NCBI GenBank assembly: GCA_002712305.1
Contig: PATE01000063.1
Coordinates: 20,265 to 43,847, forward strand
DNA length: 23,583 bases
Direction: 5' to 3'
From: Gemmatimonadota bacterium
GTDB lineage: Bacteria > Latescibacterota > UBA2968 > UBA8231
The notes under the pieces are model-generated. The model saw nothing but the letters and a program-made list of their open reading frames with translations. It was not told the origin of the DNA and did no database searches. The translations under genes and the position numbers were made by a program. Below, piece by piece: positions 1,352-22,920 of this stretch (positions are counted from its first letter, which is position 1; each line of letters opens with the position of its first letter).

Positions 1352-2764
1352 ATGCGAACCTCGATTGCCCTCGTCGCCCTGGCCACTGCACTGACAGTGA
1401 ATCCAGCCCCCGGCGACGCCGCTGGACTGCAGGATCTGCAGGCCTTCAGCGACGCCTTCGCCGAACTGACGGCACGGGTGAGCCCCGCCGTCGTGGCGGT
1501 CAAGACCGAACAGGAGATCTCAGGAGAGCCCCTCAACGACATCTTCCGCAACCATCCCTTCGTCAGGCCGCGAGAGCCGGACAGTGAGATCCGCGAGGGA
1601 CTCGGGTCGGGTGTGATCGTCAGCGCCGACGGGTACATCATCACCAACAACCATGTGATCACCTCCGGGCGAGAGCGTGATCATGTGGCGGATCGGATTC
1701 TGGTGGAATTGGCGGACCGTCGCAGTTTTGAGGCGCGCGTCATCGGTCGCGACCCACGAACGGATCTGGCTGTGCTCAAGATCGACGAGATGGAGGACCT
1801 GCCCTTTCTGTCGTTCACAGACTCTGACGAGCTCGGTGTGGGCGAATGGGTGGTCGCGATTGGCAATCCCTTTGGTCAGCTACACACGGTCACGACGGGA
1901 ATCGTCAGCGCCGTGGGGCGAAGTGCCCATCTCAGCGACTATGAGGACTACATCCAGACGGATGCAGCGATCAATCCGGGGAACAGTGGCGGTGCCTTGG
2001 TGGACACACGCGCCGGCCTTGTCGGTATCAACACAGCCATCATGTCCAGGTCGGGGGGACATCAGGGTATCGGTTTTGCGATCCCGGCAAATCTGGTGCA
2101 GAACATCATGTCACAGCTCATCGAGAATGGTGAGGTCCATCGGGGTATGCTCGGTGTTCAGATTGACAACGTCGACGCCGACATGGCCCAAGCGTTGGGA
2201 CTGGAGAGGAACGAAGGCGCTCTCGTAGAAGAGGTCGTCGACGACACGCCGGCGCAGGAGGCGGGGATCGAAGCTCTGGATGTCATCGTCGCGGTAGACG
2301 GTGAACTGGTTGAAGGAAAGGCCGCTCTTCGGGCCTACATCGCTCACAAACCCCCCGGTACCCAGGTCGTGCTTACCCTCCTCCGAGACGGCCGAGAAAA
2401 GAGCGTTCCCGTGACACTTACCGCGCTGGAGACCCCCGTGGCAGCAGCGCCGTCTGAACCAGACGACGACAATGAACGGCTCGGCCTGCGCGTGAGGAAT
2501 CTGACCGATGAAGTGGCCGATCGTCTCGGGCTCGATGAACAGGATGGTGTGATCATTTCCCGCGTTCAGCGTGGGTCCCGAGCACAGCGTGCCGGTCTGC
2601 AACAGTATGACCTCATCGTCGAAGTGAATCGAGAAGCCATCTCGGATATCGAGGACTATGAGGACGCACTCGAACAGGCAACCGGCACGGCCCTGTTGAT
2701 GATTCGTAGACCCAGTCGACGTGGAACCCTGACGGACGTGGTGGCCCTTAGGCTACCCGACTGA
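1352..2764 (+). CDS. degP: DegP/HtrA-family periplasmic serine protease with two PDZ domains
   Basis: 470 residues. HtrA proteases degrade or refold damaged envelope proteins. The ATG at 1352 is chosen because GGAGGA (1338-1343) sits 8 bases upstream and the protein then begins with a signal peptide: MRTS, a hydrophobic stretch to about residue 17, and a likely cleavage after GDAAG. An in-frame TTG at 1271 would hide that signal peptide. The trypsin-like domain spans about 35-255, with catalytic His101 (TNNHV), Asp138 (DPRTDLAVLKI) and Ser212 (NPGNSGG). PDZ1 is about 262-358 (begins RGMLGVQI); PDZ2 is about 376-470, after a Pro/Asp-rich linker. Length and architecture match DegP/DegQ/MucD, and the triad is intact. 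I saw no extracytoplasmic stress promoter in the 118-base gap after clpB. A strong terminator follows. Confidence 0.95.
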   Translation: MRTSIALVALATALTVNPAPGDAAGLQDLQAFSDAFAELTARVSPAVVAVKTEQEISGEPLNDIFRNHPFVRPREPDSEIREGLGSGVIVSADGYIITNNHVITSGRERDHVADRILVELADRRSFEARVIGRDPRTDLAVLKIDEMEDLPFLSFTDSDELGVGEWVVAIGNPFGQLHTVTTGIVSAVGRSAHLSDYEDYIQTDAAINPGNSGGALVDTRAGLVGINTAIMSRSGGHQGIGFAIPANLVQNIMSQLIENGEVHRGMLGVQIDNVDADMAQALGLERNEGALVEEVVDDTPAQEAGIEALDVIVAVDGELVEGKAALRAYIAHKPPGTQVVLTLLRDGREKSVPVTLTALETPVAAAPSEPDDDNERLGLRVRNLTDEVADRLGLDEQDGVIISRVQRGSRAQRAGLQQYDLIVEVNREAISDIEDYEDALEQATGTALLMIRRPSRRGTLTDVVALRLPD

Positions 2765-2787
2765 CGCCACACCGATGGCCCAACAAA

Positions 2788-2822
2788 GCGCGGATCCTGG
2801 GGCATCGGGGTCCGCGTTTTTT
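2788..2822 (+). terminator. Rho-independent terminator after degP
   Basis: A 9-bp stem (2789-2797 with 2808-2816, one G-U pair) encloses a loop of about 10 bases and is followed directly by six T. It lies 24 bases after the protease stop codon and separates the clpB/degP unit from the glycosidase-like gene. Confidence 0.85.
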
Positions 2823-2844
2823 GGTCCGTGACAAAACGCCAGCA

Positions 2845-2909
2845 ACGGATCGTCGTTCGATGTGACGGATGATCTCCTGAGGCGATCCAAACGTCCGCCA
2901 CGGATCGTC
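2845..2909. repeat. Short direct repeats upstream of the GH78-like gene
   Basis: The 10-base word ACGGATCGTC occurs at 2845-2854 and again at 2900-2909, with a related ACGGATGATC at 2865-2874. A perfect 8-base palindrome TGACGTCA follows at 2913-2920. All lie in the 181-base gap before the gene starting at 2947, where operators would be expected. The words are short and chance occurrence cannot be excluded. I saw no convincing -35/-10 pair. Confidence 0.3.
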
Positions 2910-2946
2910 CCTTGACGTCAGCGAGGCCAATGCGGATCTATCAAAG

Positions 2947-5148
2947 GTGAGTACACCCATCCCCATCTGGTCCGCAGGCAATCCACGAGAAGTGGTTCTC
3001 CGCCTTGCGTTACGTCTCCCGGAGCCGTGCCGTGACGGCCAGATCCGTTGTTGCGCCAGTGGTCCCTACCACATCTACCTGGGTGGCACCCGCCTTGGTG
3101 GGGGCGCCGGCGGGGTATTGCTGGACACACCCATGCAGGAGACTGTGCCCCTGGAGGGATCCTGGAATTCGGGGGAAATCGAACTCATCGTCGTTGCCCA
3201 GGGCGGCGCGACGGACACCCCATGGTTTCTCTGTGATGGCACTCTTCAGGTCGCGGGCCACGAAGACCAGACCGTGGCCATCACCAGTGGGGTGGACTGG
3301 CAGGCTTGCCCACGTCCCCAGGATTCGATGGGCAACCCGACGTCCTTCGAGCGACACATGGCCATGGACGCACCCATTGGCCATGGCGGGTGGGAAGGGG
3401 TCAGCGTCGTCGACGGTCCATCCTCACCCCGCGACCTTGTCGGCTCAGCCGAATCAGCACAGTCGCCGACGGTTGTGGTCCACGTCGGGGCACGTTCGTC
3501 GGACGCAGATCTCGCCACGATCATGATCCCTCAGTCTCTTGGCAGCTGTAAGTGTGTAAACCACGATGCCCTTCTGGGTGGTGGTCACGGTACAACTCAA
3601 GTGCGTACCCGTCCCGGTGACACGGTGCAGATCCAGTTCGATCTGGGTCGCCAGATCAGCGGATGGCCTCTTCTAAGGCTCCGGGGTGGCCGCGGTGGGG
3701 TCGTAGACCTGCGGCTGTCTTCTCGCCCGGATACTTCCGAACACCACATCCGCTATCACTGTGGCGACGGGCGTCAGGAAATGGCGGGGCTGCGTCTTAT
3801 CACCGCCCGGTACGTGACGATGAGCCTTACCGGATTCGATGATGAGGATACGGCCATCGAAGCGCTGCACATGATCGAACGGGCCGTAGAGGAGACCGCA
3901 GTAGGGCAGCTGCAGATCGACGACCAATTTGATGCAGCCTGGCTGATCGGCCAGGCTTCGGTCCACAACAGCCGTCAAGAGTCCTACGGCTCTCGTCTGT
4001 TGCCGGATCGATACGACTGGTTGGCCGGTTGGGTCTTACAGAGCAACGACCTGGCTCATACGAGCTCGCCTCGGATTGCTCGGCAGACGTTGCTGGGCCG
4101 GGCACCTATCGCGCCTTTCGAGCCCGGCGATTTCGCATATGCCCTGGCTGTGCTCGGCTACTATCAACATGCCGGTGACGAGGCCACGACCGATGCGGCT
4201 CTGGGTGTGCTGGCCCGGTTGTGGTCTCAGGCGGACGACGTGCTCGACCGGCCGACCACTCGGTGGGGCCAAGCGGCTGCTGCGGCTCTGGCTCTGGCCG
4301 CCATCGACGCCACGTGTCAGATCGGTGAATACCGCCAGCGAACGCTCGAGCTGGACGCGATCCGAGCAAAGTGTCTTGAAGTGCTGACCGCATGCTGGGA
4401 CGAAACGACAGAGTTGTACGCAGATGATCCGAAGGGCGATCGTTTCCAGCAGTGGACGAATGGACTCGTTCTGCTGGCTCGTGGGGACAAAGACGGACGG
4501 GCAGCCCAGATTGAACAGTCCATGCGCCGACCTGGTGTCGAACCCATCTCAACCTTCACACAGGCGTGGGTCGTGGCCGCGGGCCTGGGCCGTGCCGGGC
4601 GTGTGCAGCGGATGATGGATGTGATCTCCAACCATTGGCTCCGACGACTCTCACGCGAGGGACGCACGTGGCGCGACAAAGGGGCATTCGATCCATCGGC
4701 AAGCGCACCGGGTCCGGACGCCTTGTGGGTTCGTCATCTTCTCGGTGTCCGCTCGCTGGGTCCAGCATGGTCGATTCGTGAAGTGACGCCGCCCCTGGCC
4801 GTGTTGCCACAGGCGCAAGCGCGAGTTCCGCTTTGCGAGGGTGCATCTCTAAGCCTGTCGTGGGGACCGGATATCGACGAGGACCCGCCAGACCCCGAAG
4901 TCTCTCGGGCGGACAACCTTCGCCCGAATCCCGTTCGCCTGAATCTCGGTGTCGACTTGGAGGGCGAGACACACCTGAGGCTCGAGCGCGGAGGCCGCAA
5001 GCGGCCGACCGTCAGCGTCAATGGCGAGGTGGTCTGGCGAAACGAAAAAATCTATCCCAATCCGATCGTGCATCTGATCGCCGCCGAAGAGGACCATGTT
5101 CTGCTGCTGTTGGATCGCACCGGGCATTTTCAGATCTATCTCGAATGA
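2947..5148 (+). CDS. GH78-like (alpha-L-rhamnosidase-type) six-hairpin protein, catalytic residues doubtful
   Basis: 733 residues, GTG start, no signal peptide, so probably cytoplasmic. The order of parts resembles GH78: an N-terminal beta domain (GPYHIYLGGTRLG, 39-51), a region around GHGGWEGVSVVDGP (145-158), the characteristic FDLGRQISGWPLLRLRG (231-247), an (alpha/alpha)6-barrel-like part from about 310 to 605, and a C-terminal beta domain with LLGVRSLGPAW (598-608) and a TPPLAVL strand. In canonical enzymes the barrel carries an acidic motif of the type DCPxRERxxWxGD. Here the matching stretch reads LLPDRYDWLAGW (351-362), and the later WE motif region reads RTWRDKGAF (573-581). The usual acids therefore seem replaced, and activity on rhamnosides is uncertain. 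The stop overlaps the next ATG (ATGA at 5145-5148), implying translational coupling to the esterase. The start is the weakest point: AAAGG overlaps the GTG. Confidence 0.7.
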   Translation: MSTPIPIWSAGNPREVVLRLALRLPEPCRDGQIRCCASGPYHIYLGGTRLGGGAGGVLLDTPMQETVPLEGSWNSGEIELIVVAQGGATDTPWFLCDGTLQVAGHEDQTVAITSGVDWQACPRPQDSMGNPTSFERHMAMDAPIGHGGWEGVSVVDGPSSPRDLVGSAESAQSPTVVVHVGARSSDADLATIMIPQSLGSCKCVNHDALLGGGHGTTQVRTRPGDTVQIQFDLGRQISGWPLLRLRGGRGGVVDLRLSSRPDTSEHHIRYHCGDGRQEMAGLRLITARYVTMSLTGFDDEDTAIEALHMIERAVEETAVGQLQIDDQFDAAWLIGQASVHNSRQESYGSRLLPDRYDWLAGWVLQSNDLAHTSSPRIARQTLLGRAPIAPFEPGDFAYALAVLGYYQHAGDEATTDAALGVLARLWSQADDVLDRPTTRWGQAAAAALALAAIDATCQIGEYRQRTLELDAIRAKCLEVLTACWDETTELYADDPKGDRFQQWTNGLVLLARGDKDGRAAQIEQSMRRPGVEPISTFTQAWVVAAGLGRAGRVQRMMDVISNHWLRRLSREGRTWRDKGAFDPSASAPGPDALWVRHLLGVRSLGPAWSIREVTPPLAVLPQAQARVPLCEGASLSLSWGPDIDEDPPDPEVSRADNLRPNPVRLNLGVDLEGETHLRLERGGRKRPTVSVNGEVVWRNEKIYPNPIVHLIAAEEDHVLLLLDRTGHFQIYLE

Positions 5149-20719: not shown

Positions 20720-21646
20720 ATGGCTCGATACCTCGTGACGGGTGGCGCCGGTTTTATTGGTTCTCACCTGTGTACCCGACTCTGTGCCGAAGGGCATGAC
20801 GTGCGTGCTCTTGACGATCTGTCGAGCGGTCACCGATCGAACCTCGACGGTGTCGATGTGGATCTCATCGTCGGCGATCTGCGCGATCGTGATGCACTCG
20901 AGTCGGCCACAGATGGCGCCGATTTCGTTCTACATCACGCCGCGATCGCTTCGGTTCAGTTTTCAGTCGAGCATCCGTTGGAAGAACAGGATGTGAACGT
21001 TGTCGGCACCCTGAGATTGCTGGAAGCGGCACGTGCGGCGGGAGTGAAGCGTGTCGTCTTCGCAGCGTCCGCCGCAGCCTATGGTGAAGACGAAACCGTG
21101 CCGAAACAGGAGTCGATGCGTGCGCAGCCAATCTCCCCCTACGGCCTATCGAAGGTGACCGGTGAGCACTACTGTCGTGTCTGGTCCCATGTCTTCGGCC
21201 TCGAGACCGTCTGTCTACGCTACTTCAACATTTTCGGACCCCGTCAGGATCCGAACAGTCCCTACAGCGGTGTGATCTCCATTTTCGCACGGATCATGCT
21301 GGATGGTCGGATCCCGTCGATTCACGGCGACGGTGAACAGTCGCGAGATTTCACGTTCGTCGACAATGTGGTCGATGCCAACATGGGGGCATGTGCCGTC
21401 TCCTCCACAGCGGGAGAGATCTACAACATTGGCTGTGCGCGAGCGATCACGATCAATGATCTGGTGCAGGCCATAAACGATGAGCTCGGAACCGATCTCC
21501 AACCGGATCATGTGCAGGCACGTGCCGGAGACGTTCGCGCCTCCCTGGCCGACATCGCCGCCGCGACCAGTGACCTCGGTTACGTCCCCACCACATCTTT
21601 CGAGGAAGGTCTGCGCCAAACCCTCGCCTGGATGCGCACCGCCTGA
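20720..21646 (+). CDS. NAD-dependent nucleotide-sugar epimerase (GalE/WbpP-like extended SDR)
   Basis: 308 residues. Rossmann start YLVTGGAGFIGSHL (4-17), Asp32-Asp33 after strand 2, LHHAAIASVQFSVEHP (71-86), catalytic Ser117 (FAASAAAYG), Tyr141/Lys145 (SPYGLSKVTGE), LRYFNIFGPRQDPNSPYSGVI (from about 161), and RDFTFVDNVVDA. The HHAA-x-SVxxS and RDFTFVDNV pattern is that of UDP-glucose or UDP-N-acetylglucosamine 4-epimerases; which sugar cannot be decided. It probably supplies envelope polysaccharide or LPS. The ATG is assigned by homology: AGGA immediately abuts the start, which is too close for a normal Shine-Dalgarno. Divergent from tal; followed after 95 bases by the 2-phosphoglycerate-kinase-like gene. 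Confidence 0.92.
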   Translation: MARYLVTGGAGFIGSHLCTRLCAEGHDVRALDDLSSGHRSNLDGVDVDLIVGDLRDRDALESATDGADFVLHHAAIASVQFSVEHPLEEQDVNVVGTLRLLEAARAAGVKRVVFAASAAAYGEDETVPKQESMRAQPISPYGLSKVTGEHYCRVWSHVFGLETVCLRYFNIFGPRQDPNSPYSGVISIFARIMLDGRIPSIHGDGEQSRDFTFVDNVVDANMGACAVSSTAGEIYNIGCARAITINDLVQAINDELGTDLQPDHVQARAGDVRASLADIAAATSDLGYVPTTSFEEGLRQTLAWMRTA

Positions 21647-21718: not shown

Positions 21719-21731
21719 CCACGAATCGTGG
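21719..21731. repeat. 13-base inverted repeat just upstream of the 2-phosphoglycerate-kinase-like start
   Basis: CCACGA-A-TCGTGG is a perfect inverted repeat with one central base, 10 bases before the ATG at 21742. The half-site AATCGTGG also occurs at 21653-21660, just after the epimerase stop. Possible operator, or a fold occupying the ribosome-binding region, which otherwise lacks a clear Shine-Dalgarno. Confidence 0.4.
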
Positions 21732-21741
21732 CCACGGTCCT

Positions 21742-22920
21742 ATGGCAGACATTATCGACGGCAAGAAGCGCATTCCCTTCATGCGTGGCATGCTCGTTCA
21801 TCACCTGATTCAGCACGGTCTCGACCACGAGGCTGCCTTCGAGGTGGCCGACGAGGTGCGCTCAGCCCTGCGAAGTCACAAGCAGGACATCGATCGTGAG
21901 GAACTGGTTGTCCTGATCGAGGAACTGTTGAGCCGTGACCACCCCGACCACGGGATCCGTGATCTGGTCTTCTGGGAGCCCGTGCCGACGTCCATTACCG
22001 TCGATGTCGGCGACAGTGCTCATCCCTTTTCCCGCGAGAGACTGGCTCACTCCGTGCGCGCAGCAGGTCTGGCACCTGACCAAGCTCTCGAGATGGCCCA
22101 CCGAGTGGAGAAACGGCTCCTCGAGCAGCGCAGAGACCGAATACAAAGCCAGGAACTTGAATCCCTCGTGGTCGAGGTGCTCGCCGAGTACCGCGGTGAT
22201 CGATTGGTCGATCGGTATCTGGTCTGGCGCGCATGGGGAGATGTCGGCAAGCCACTCGTCGTCCTGATCGGTGGCGCTTCGGGAGTGGGCAAGACATCAC
22301 TTGCGATCAGTCTGGCCAGCGTTCTCGATATTCCACGGCTGGTGGCGACCGATGACATTCGACAGATTCTCCGGCTCACTCTGTCACCGGAGTTCATGCC
22401 CTCGATCCATCGCTCCTCGTATACCGTTTCACGAGGTGTACAGTTGCCCGACACGTCATCGGAAGACCCCGTCATCAGCGGCTTCCGCGATCAGGCGCGC
22501 GTTGTGGGTGTCGGTGTGCGTGCGATTATCAGTCGCTGCATCGAAGAGAACACGAGTGTCATTGTCGACGGCGTTCACTTGATCCCGGGGTTTACGGACC
22601 TGAGCGCGTTCGTCGACGACGCCTTCATCGTACCCATGTGCCTGGCCGTAACGGATCGTGAAGTCTATGAGGAGAGATTCGCACGTCGCGCTGACCAGGC
22701 GCCGAATCGCCCCAAGCAACGATACCTCGACAACCTCGAAGACATCATTGCGATCCAGCAGCACATTTTAGATGAAAGTGACCAGGAAGATATTCCCGTG
22801 ATTGAGGTGACCACCGTTGAAGACCCAACTAGTGCCGCCGTCACTCTGGTTGCTGAGCGACTTCGCAAACACCGGGAGATCCGTCGTCTCTTCAAAGGAA
22901 ACGGGAAGAAGAAGAAGTAG
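21742..22920 (+). CDS. 2-phosphoglycerate-kinase-like protein with two N-terminal ATP-cone modules
   Basis: 392 residues. The kinase part (about 168-380) has GGASGVGKTSLAISLA (177-192), TDDIRQILR (203-211) and VIVDGVHLIPG (273-283), the pattern of archaeal 2-phosphoglycerate kinase, which makes 2,3-bisphosphoglycerate as precursor of cyclic 2,3-diphosphoglycerate. In front are two similar ATP-cone-like segments, residues about 11-74 (IPFMRGMLVHHLIQHGL...) and 93-165 (HPFSRERLAHSVRAAGL..., ending DRYLVWRAW). Archaeal enzymes as I recall them carry one. ATP cones are nucleotide-sensing regulatory domains, so activity is probably gated by ATP/ADP (inference). The protein ends in GNGKKKK, a basic tail. 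Neighbours are sugar-phosphate genes. The ribosome-binding site is unclear; a terminator follows. The substrate in a bacterium is unproven. Confidence 0.8.
   Translation: MADIIDGKKRIPFMRGMLVHHLIQHGLDHEAAFEVADEVRSALRSHKQDIDREELVVLIEELLSRDHPDHGIRDLVFWEPVPTSITVDVGDSAHPFSRERLAHSVRAAGLAPDQALEMAHRVEKRLLEQRRDRIQSQELESLVVEVLAEYRGDRLVDRYLVWRAWGDVGKPLVVLIGGASGVGKTSLAISLASVLDIPRLVATDDIRQILRLTLSPEFMPSIHRSSYTVSRGVQLPDTSSEDPVISGFRDQARVVGVGVRAIISRCIEENTSVIVDGVHLIPGFTDLSAFVDDAFIVPMCLAVTDREVYEERFARRADQAPNRPKQRYLDNLEDIIAIQQHILDESDQEDIPVIEVTTVEDPTSAAVTLVAERLRKHREIRRLFKGNGKKKK

Follow-up and report, generated by a model that had tools for sequence, protein, structure and literature searches.

A Gemmatimonadota kinase of the 2-phosphoglycerate kinase family with two ATP-cones

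Results

The kinase gene and its neighbours

The window, by which we mean the entire analysed stretch of 23,583 nucleotides from a contig of a marine, metagenome-derived Gemmatimonadota genome, contains on its plus strand an open reading frame (21742..22920) encoding a 392-amino acid kinase of the 2-phosphoglycerate kinase (2PGK) family with two ATP-cones, as identified by the ORF call together with NCBIfam and Pfam profile matches. The start of the protein is conserved, the pattern M/V-A-x-I-(V/I)-D-G being kept among homologues from the class. A GalE-like epimerase gene (20720-21646) lies upstream on the kinase strand; the next downstream gene on that strand is bactofilin-like by eye and has no NCBIfam match. 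Genes for transaldolase, glucose-6-phosphate dehydrogenase (G6PD), glucokinase, and class I aldolase run along the minus strand from 20491 downwards, and are divergently transcribed from the kinase gene.

The gene was found in 45 of the 47 genomes of its Gemmatimonadota class and was absent from all 17 genomes that represent the rest of the phylum. A relative (L021, JABJJN010000072, labelled Gemmatimonadota) is 81% identical. In the family of the window (f1), G6PD, epimerase, and bactofilin genes are conserved neighbours of the kinase gene, but they are absent beside it in families f3 and f4 of the class; genomic context therefore does not define a pathway. The first-pass annotation had placed the kinase among aldolase, glucokinase, and pentose phosphate genes. 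These genes are indeed present, but a functional link to them is rejected, since the kinase gene runs on the other strand and does not have them as neighbours in other families.

The palindrome CCACGAATCGTGG (CCACGA-A-TCGTGG) is located at 21719-21731, 10 bp before the kinase start; there is one exact match to it, with 0.15 expected at one mismatch or fewer. It was discarded as a candidate conserved element, being not conserved upstream of relatives.

No viral or phage relatives of the kinase were found. Plasmid relatives comprised a short, kinase-only Meiothermus protein and weak matches from Deinococcus and Streptomyces, and were not informative. The Meiothermus taiwanensis plasmid gene (L080:3938-4471), which is annotated as 2-phosphoglycerate kinase and lies near a transposase gene, encodes a protein whose P-loop is shortened to GGVGKS and which lacks a cone.

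The kinase half belongs to the 2PGK family but misses the curated cut-offs

The P-loop kinase domain occupies residues 170-380 (22249..22881, plus strand). Taken alone, this half of the protein matches PRK04220 (archaeal 2PGK) best among NCBIfam profiles (model positions 91-296, E = 2.5e-59), followed by PRK12337 (bacterial 2PGK), the same order as for the whole protein. The Walker A motif GGASGVGKT (residues 177-185; 22270..22296, plus strand) and the motif TDDIRQILR (residues 203-211; 22348..22374, plus strand) are where the first-pass annotation had reported them within the same reading frame, and its assignment of the kinase half also held, no other kinase family giving a better match. With the whole protein, PRK04220 aligns residues 85-379 to positions 6-297 of its 306 (E = 5e-88), so that one cone and the P-loop kinase are homologous over the length of the profile. 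The score, 295.3 bits, is nevertheless below the curated cut-off of 343, which none of the 64 genomes of the phylum reached, and the PRK12337 score of 278.4 bits is below its cut-off of 603. Judged from sequence, homology to the 2PGK family is secure, while the curated equivalog names are not earned. A profile for mevalonate-3-phosphate 5-kinase also matches the protein (E = 2e-18).

Structure prediction covered the window protein and its relatives L021 and L022, the latter from Actinomycetota. For the full window protein, the AlphaFold model reached a mean pLDDT of 69.9, a moderate confidence. During structure searches, the model of the kinase half was nearest to gluconate kinase (Z = 14.0 over 169 residues), with nucleotide and APS kinases next; the predicted fold is that expected of a small-molecule P-loop kinase. 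A sequence search of the PDB found no 2PGK structure. The family profile also matched the N-domain and P-loop of the SRP receptor FtsY (E = 1e-6; window-protein residues 102-200). This similarity is mostly that of a P-loop beside a helical bundle, which precedes the P-loop in both proteins.

Both N-terminal segments are ATP-cones

Cone 2 (residues about 84-168; 21991..22245, plus strand) is the one common to single-cone 2PGKs. The Pfam ATP-cone profile PF03477 matches it over residues 94-165 (E = 3.5e-12; 47.2 bits, over the gathering cut-off of 25.8) and matches cone 2 in 20 of 20 homologues; in hhalign comparisons, it aligned with the cones of single-cone 2PGKs at E = 6.6e-26. For cone 1 (residues about 3-78; 21748..21975, plus strand; a beta-hairpin plus helices), the Pfam ATP-cone match was absent in the window protein and weak in one of the 20 homologues (E = 0.049).

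Other comparisons did detect cone 1. The cone region of PRK04220, a profile that contains one cone only, matched cone 1 as a second, separate match in the genome of the window (E = 5e-7) and in most class genomes. The isolated cone 1 segment matched model positions 10-84 (E = 2e-8), and the corresponding segments matched the cone part of the profile in 20/20 homologues, the best E being 1.2e-9. Profile-profile alignment with hhalign gave a probability of 97.7% (E = 2.4e-12) against the cone of single-cone 2PGKs and of 97.3% against cone 2. The probability did not exceed 2.2% for any of 30 column shuffles and stayed below 1% for a reversed profile and for unrelated kinase segments; chance resemblance is ruled out by these controls. 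When cone 1 was modelled alone, with no alignment, a hairpin and three helices were obtained (pLDDT 78), and ATP-cones of NrdR or ribonucleotide reductase filled the top 18 places in Foldseek and the top 19 rows in VIA-align. The same fold was matched in these cones with Z scores of 6.2-9.3 over 70-79 residues; the first unrelated VIA-align row had a Z of 6.0, and argininosuccinate lyase ranked under all cones. Weak Pfam matches of cone 1 to the PAH repeat (E = 0.012) and ASL_C2 were taken as noise. A sequence search of the PDB with the cone profiles retrieved no cones. Because the 2PGK-profile matches, the profile-profile controls, and the fold overturn the missing Pfam match, we conclude that the duplication is real and that cone 1 is a homologous ATP-cone. 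The two tandem cones proposed in the first-pass annotation, at residues ~11-74 and ~93-165, were thus upheld with boundaries close to those found (about 3-78 and 94-165), although PF03477, named there as a check on residues 1-165, bore out the second cone and left the first to be rescued by the other tests.

Among the stretches compared in the class, conservation is highest at the start of cone 1, which reads I-(V/I)-D-G-x-x-R-I-P-F-(L/M)-R-G-M-L. Mean majority identity is 83% for residues 4-26, 80% for the P-loop region, and 61% for the start of cone 2; D6 and R15 are invariant, and G7 and R10 nearly so. Conservation on a par with the P-loop region argues for a working domain. The phosphate-binding motif of ribonucleotide reductase and NrdR cones is VxKR, which was seen, by eye, in neither cone of the window protein. 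Lys53 of E. coli NrdR, which contacts both nucleotides (PMC12176259), has no evident counterpart in these cones, and the Pfam match of cone 2 leaves out the first strand, starting at model position 11. As neither cone shows the VxKR motif recognisably, both may have a purely structural role.

Double-cone and single-cone kinases differ at fixed positions

We compared 20 double-cone sequences from the class with 31 single-cone sequences linked to cyclic 2,3-diphosphoglycerate (cDPG) synthetase (cDPGS). Both clades keep a common catalytic core: Walker A, T203, D204, R207, R211, G277, H279, R316, R323, and Y328. Within the motif DGVH (residues 276-279; 22567..22578, plus strand), D276 is present in 20/20 class sequences and is replaced by Glu in 31/31 single-cone sequences. 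Within YEERFARR (residues 309-316; 22666..22689, plus strand), two His residues that are invariant in the single-cone set (31/31 at each position) give way to R312 (20/20) and an aromatic residue, Tyr or Phe, at 309 (20/20). T185, the last residue of Walker A, is a further fixed difference, being Ser in all 31 single-cone homologues. From their position in the fold, these residues are predicted to contact the acceptor. The two clades are split in the tree with 100/99 support, and this split, together with the residue switches, allows for a different substrate.

No cDPG synthetase in the phylum, and a gene pair in Actinomycetota

The cDPGS profile had no match in the 64 Gemmatimonadota genomes, among them that of the window, which is 90.9% complete, and matched in 168 of 296 Actinomycetota genomes, which served as a positive control. 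The window enzyme therefore stands outside any recognisable cDPG pathway, in keeping with the first-pass expectation that cDPG would be lacking.

The only distant relative from the scan of named genomes was L022, a single-cone 2PGK from Actinomycetota. Directly upstream of its gene is a cDPGS homologue (1845-3029 and 3082-3984 for the cDPGS-2PGK pair, both on the plus strand) that matches PDB entries 8ork, 8oru, and 9sxb (E = 1.7e-65). A cDPGS homologue was also found immediately upstream, on the same strand, in all of the 30 best Actinomycetota single-cone 2PGK loci (L030-L059), three of which are cut or broken; the two genes are thus adjacent in 31 of the 31 Actinomycetota loci examined. One cDPGS homologue from the 30 matches the Methanothermus fervidus enzyme in the PDB (E = 1.6e-136). 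Among the 296 genomes, 160 had both genes, three had 2PGK only, three had cDPGS only, and 130 had neither (Fisher p = 2e-76, for strong matches counted by hand and with a p value that relatedness among the genomes inflates). The pair is widely separated in some Actinomycetota genomes, such as G071.

Phosphoglycerate mutases

In chemical terms, an obvious role for 2,3-bisphosphoglycerate (2,3-BPG) is as cofactor of phosphoglycerate mutase. The 2,3-BPG-dependent enzyme (dPGM) was over its cut-off in 0/47 class genomes. Archaeal-type apgM was over cut-off in 24 of 25 f1 genomes, often in two copies, and iPGM is carried by families f3 and f4; most f1 genomes had neither dPGM nor iPGM over cut-off. 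Both apgM and iPGM are cofactor-independent mutases. Judged by the profiles, then, the mutases have no need of 2,3-BPG as a cofactor. The genome of the window has two apgM homologues (C39:5986-7164 and C66:1134-2258), as do many f1 relatives.

Discussion

Relation to known 2PGKs and ATP-cones

The archaeal 2PGK (PRK04220; the M. fervidus enzyme, COG2074) has one ATP-cone directly before a P-loop kinase. Cone 2 and the kinase half of the window protein align over almost the whole of this profile; the window protein differs in its extra N-terminal cone, its sub-threshold score, and the lack of cDPGS in its genome. The first-pass contrast with a single archaeal cone agrees with PRK04220, yet the two-cone form already occurs in other bacteria: PRK12337 has two cones and a kinase in the same order, and window residues 6-377 correspond to its positions 94-473. 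A genome fragment bearing cone 1 only (G033) likewise matches PRK12337 positions 92-157. The model, of 492 positions, has about 90 more at the N terminus than the window protein and, with less than half of its cut-off score attained, represents a different equivalog. Two of the 14 control genomes passed the PRK12337 cut-off, with Thermus and Deinobacterium among the four that gave matches, and COG2074 was noted in Thermus and Deinococcus in 2005 (PMC1274311). Double cones are therefore not unprecedented, PRK12337 of Thermus (Deinococcota) showing the same order. The single-cone 2PGKs of Actinomycetota have cone 2, the kinase, and the catalytic motifs in common with the window protein, but form a separate clade, carry Glu/His/His in place of Asp276/Arg312/Tyr or Phe309, and adjoin cDPGS. 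Compared with the cones of NrdR and ribonucleotide reductase, those described here sit on a metabolite kinase and have no recognisable canonical phosphate-binding motif.

Proposed function

Our preferred reading, to which we assign a probability of roughly 0.45, is that the protein is a 2PGK-family kinase whose two-cone front end gates, by nucleotide, the phosphorylation of a small phospho-hydroxy-acid to a product that is not cyclised. A soluble small-molecule kinase with two regulatory ATP-cones would transfer a phosphate from ATP to, most likely, a small phosphorylated hydroxy-acid, with 2-phosphoglycerate as the first candidate acceptor; the product from 2-phosphoglycerate would be 2,3-BPG, which in the window organism would not be cyclised to cDPG. 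The cones would bind adenine nucleotides, as they do in ribonucleotide reductase and NrdR, and binding may change the oligomeric state or domain packing such that kinase output tracks energy charge. The analysis establishes the two cones, the family, the conservation in the class, and the absence of a detectable cDPGS and of a recognised 2,3-BPG-dependent mutase; we infer which acid is phosphorylated, what is made from it, that the cones bind nucleotides, and that they act as a switch. In favour of this reading are the family assignment, the two cones, conservation in 45/47 class genomes, the common catalytic core, and the small-molecule-kinase fold, and 2PGK activity is established for M. fervidus (cited in PMC12136491 and PMC10690619). 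Against it are the missed cut-offs, the residue switches, the clade split, and the absence of cDPGS, dPGM, and VxKR. The first-pass assignment of 2-phosphoglycerate as substrate is accordingly not established, both equivalog cut-offs being missed and pocket-region residues being switched. Its suggestion of an ATP-sensing switch is weakened by the truncated Pfam match of cone 2 and by the lack of VxKR in either cone.

Another explanation, which we regard as a genuine, if somewhat doubtful, possibility, is that the kinase has kept its fold and chemistry and acquired another acceptor. Candidates would be sugar acids, other phospho-hydroxyacids, and, in view of the roles or names given to other relatives, phosphates of inositol or mevalonate. 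Pocket-region residues are fixed differently in the two separate clades, and cDPGS is missing from all 64 Gemmatimonadota genomes while it goes together with 2PGK in Actinomycetota (160:3:3:130). Relatives bear other names, as with the mevalonate-3-phosphate 5-kinase profile, and rice Lpa1 was proposed to be an inositol-monophosphate kinase (PMC4844318). However, 2PGK is still the best family match by a wide margin, the E276D change is conservative, and no neighbour conserved across families indicates another pathway. The cones pose a separate question. That a true 2PGK uses them as oligomerisation or stability modules with no nucleotide sensing is consistent with the truncated Pfam match of cone 2 and with the lack of VxKR and of a Lys53 counterpart, but we consider it improbable: the hairpin and first helix of cone 1 are conserved beyond the needs of a spacer, down to the invariant D6 and R15 and the nearly invariant G7 and R10. 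Least probable by far, and rejected on the mutase inventory, is supply of 2,3-BPG as a mutase cofactor; obvious as this use is chemically, no class genome passes the dPGM cut-off, and the mutases of f1, f3, and f4 dispense with the cofactor.

A further reading, of a kinase with two-cone gating that makes a phosphorylated acid, is in our judgement rather unlikely. According to it, this would be a class-wide Gemmatimonadota kinase that has departed from the cDPG pathway, with a changed acceptor site, and its product (2,3-BPG or another phospho-acid) would serve as an energy-linked signal or buffer of a kind undescribed in bacteria.

ATP-cones have been described chiefly in ribonucleotide reductase and NrdR, where they serve as on/off switches. 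With two cones on a metabolite kinase, one of which is missed by Pfam, the present enzyme offers a clean system for studying what ATP-cones sense outside the control of DNA precursors. In our comparison, 2PGK relatives moreover fall into two kinds, single-cone enzymes tied to cDPGS and double-cone enzymes with no cDPGS, a division that warns against naming proteins "2-phosphoglycerate kinase" by homology.

A predicted cDPG pathway in Actinomycetota

The same comparison exposes the cDPGS-2PGK pair of Actinomycetota as a predicted bacterial cDPG pathway, which is possibly of more interest than the double-cone kinase itself. cDPG was stated to be exclusive to hyperthermophilic archaeal methanogens (PMC10690619), and cDPG synthetase was inferred in ancestral ammonia-oxidising archaea (PMC7554672). 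Our literature search, which left subscription papers mostly outside its reach, found no report of the Actinomycetota pair. Just downstream of the pair at L022 lies a sequence resembling class II fructose-bisphosphatase (GlpX; 4329-4994, named by eye); the short flanks of the other pair loci yielded no such sequence. The pair-bearing genomes are bacterial, with full-length tmRNA over cut-off in 28 of 31.
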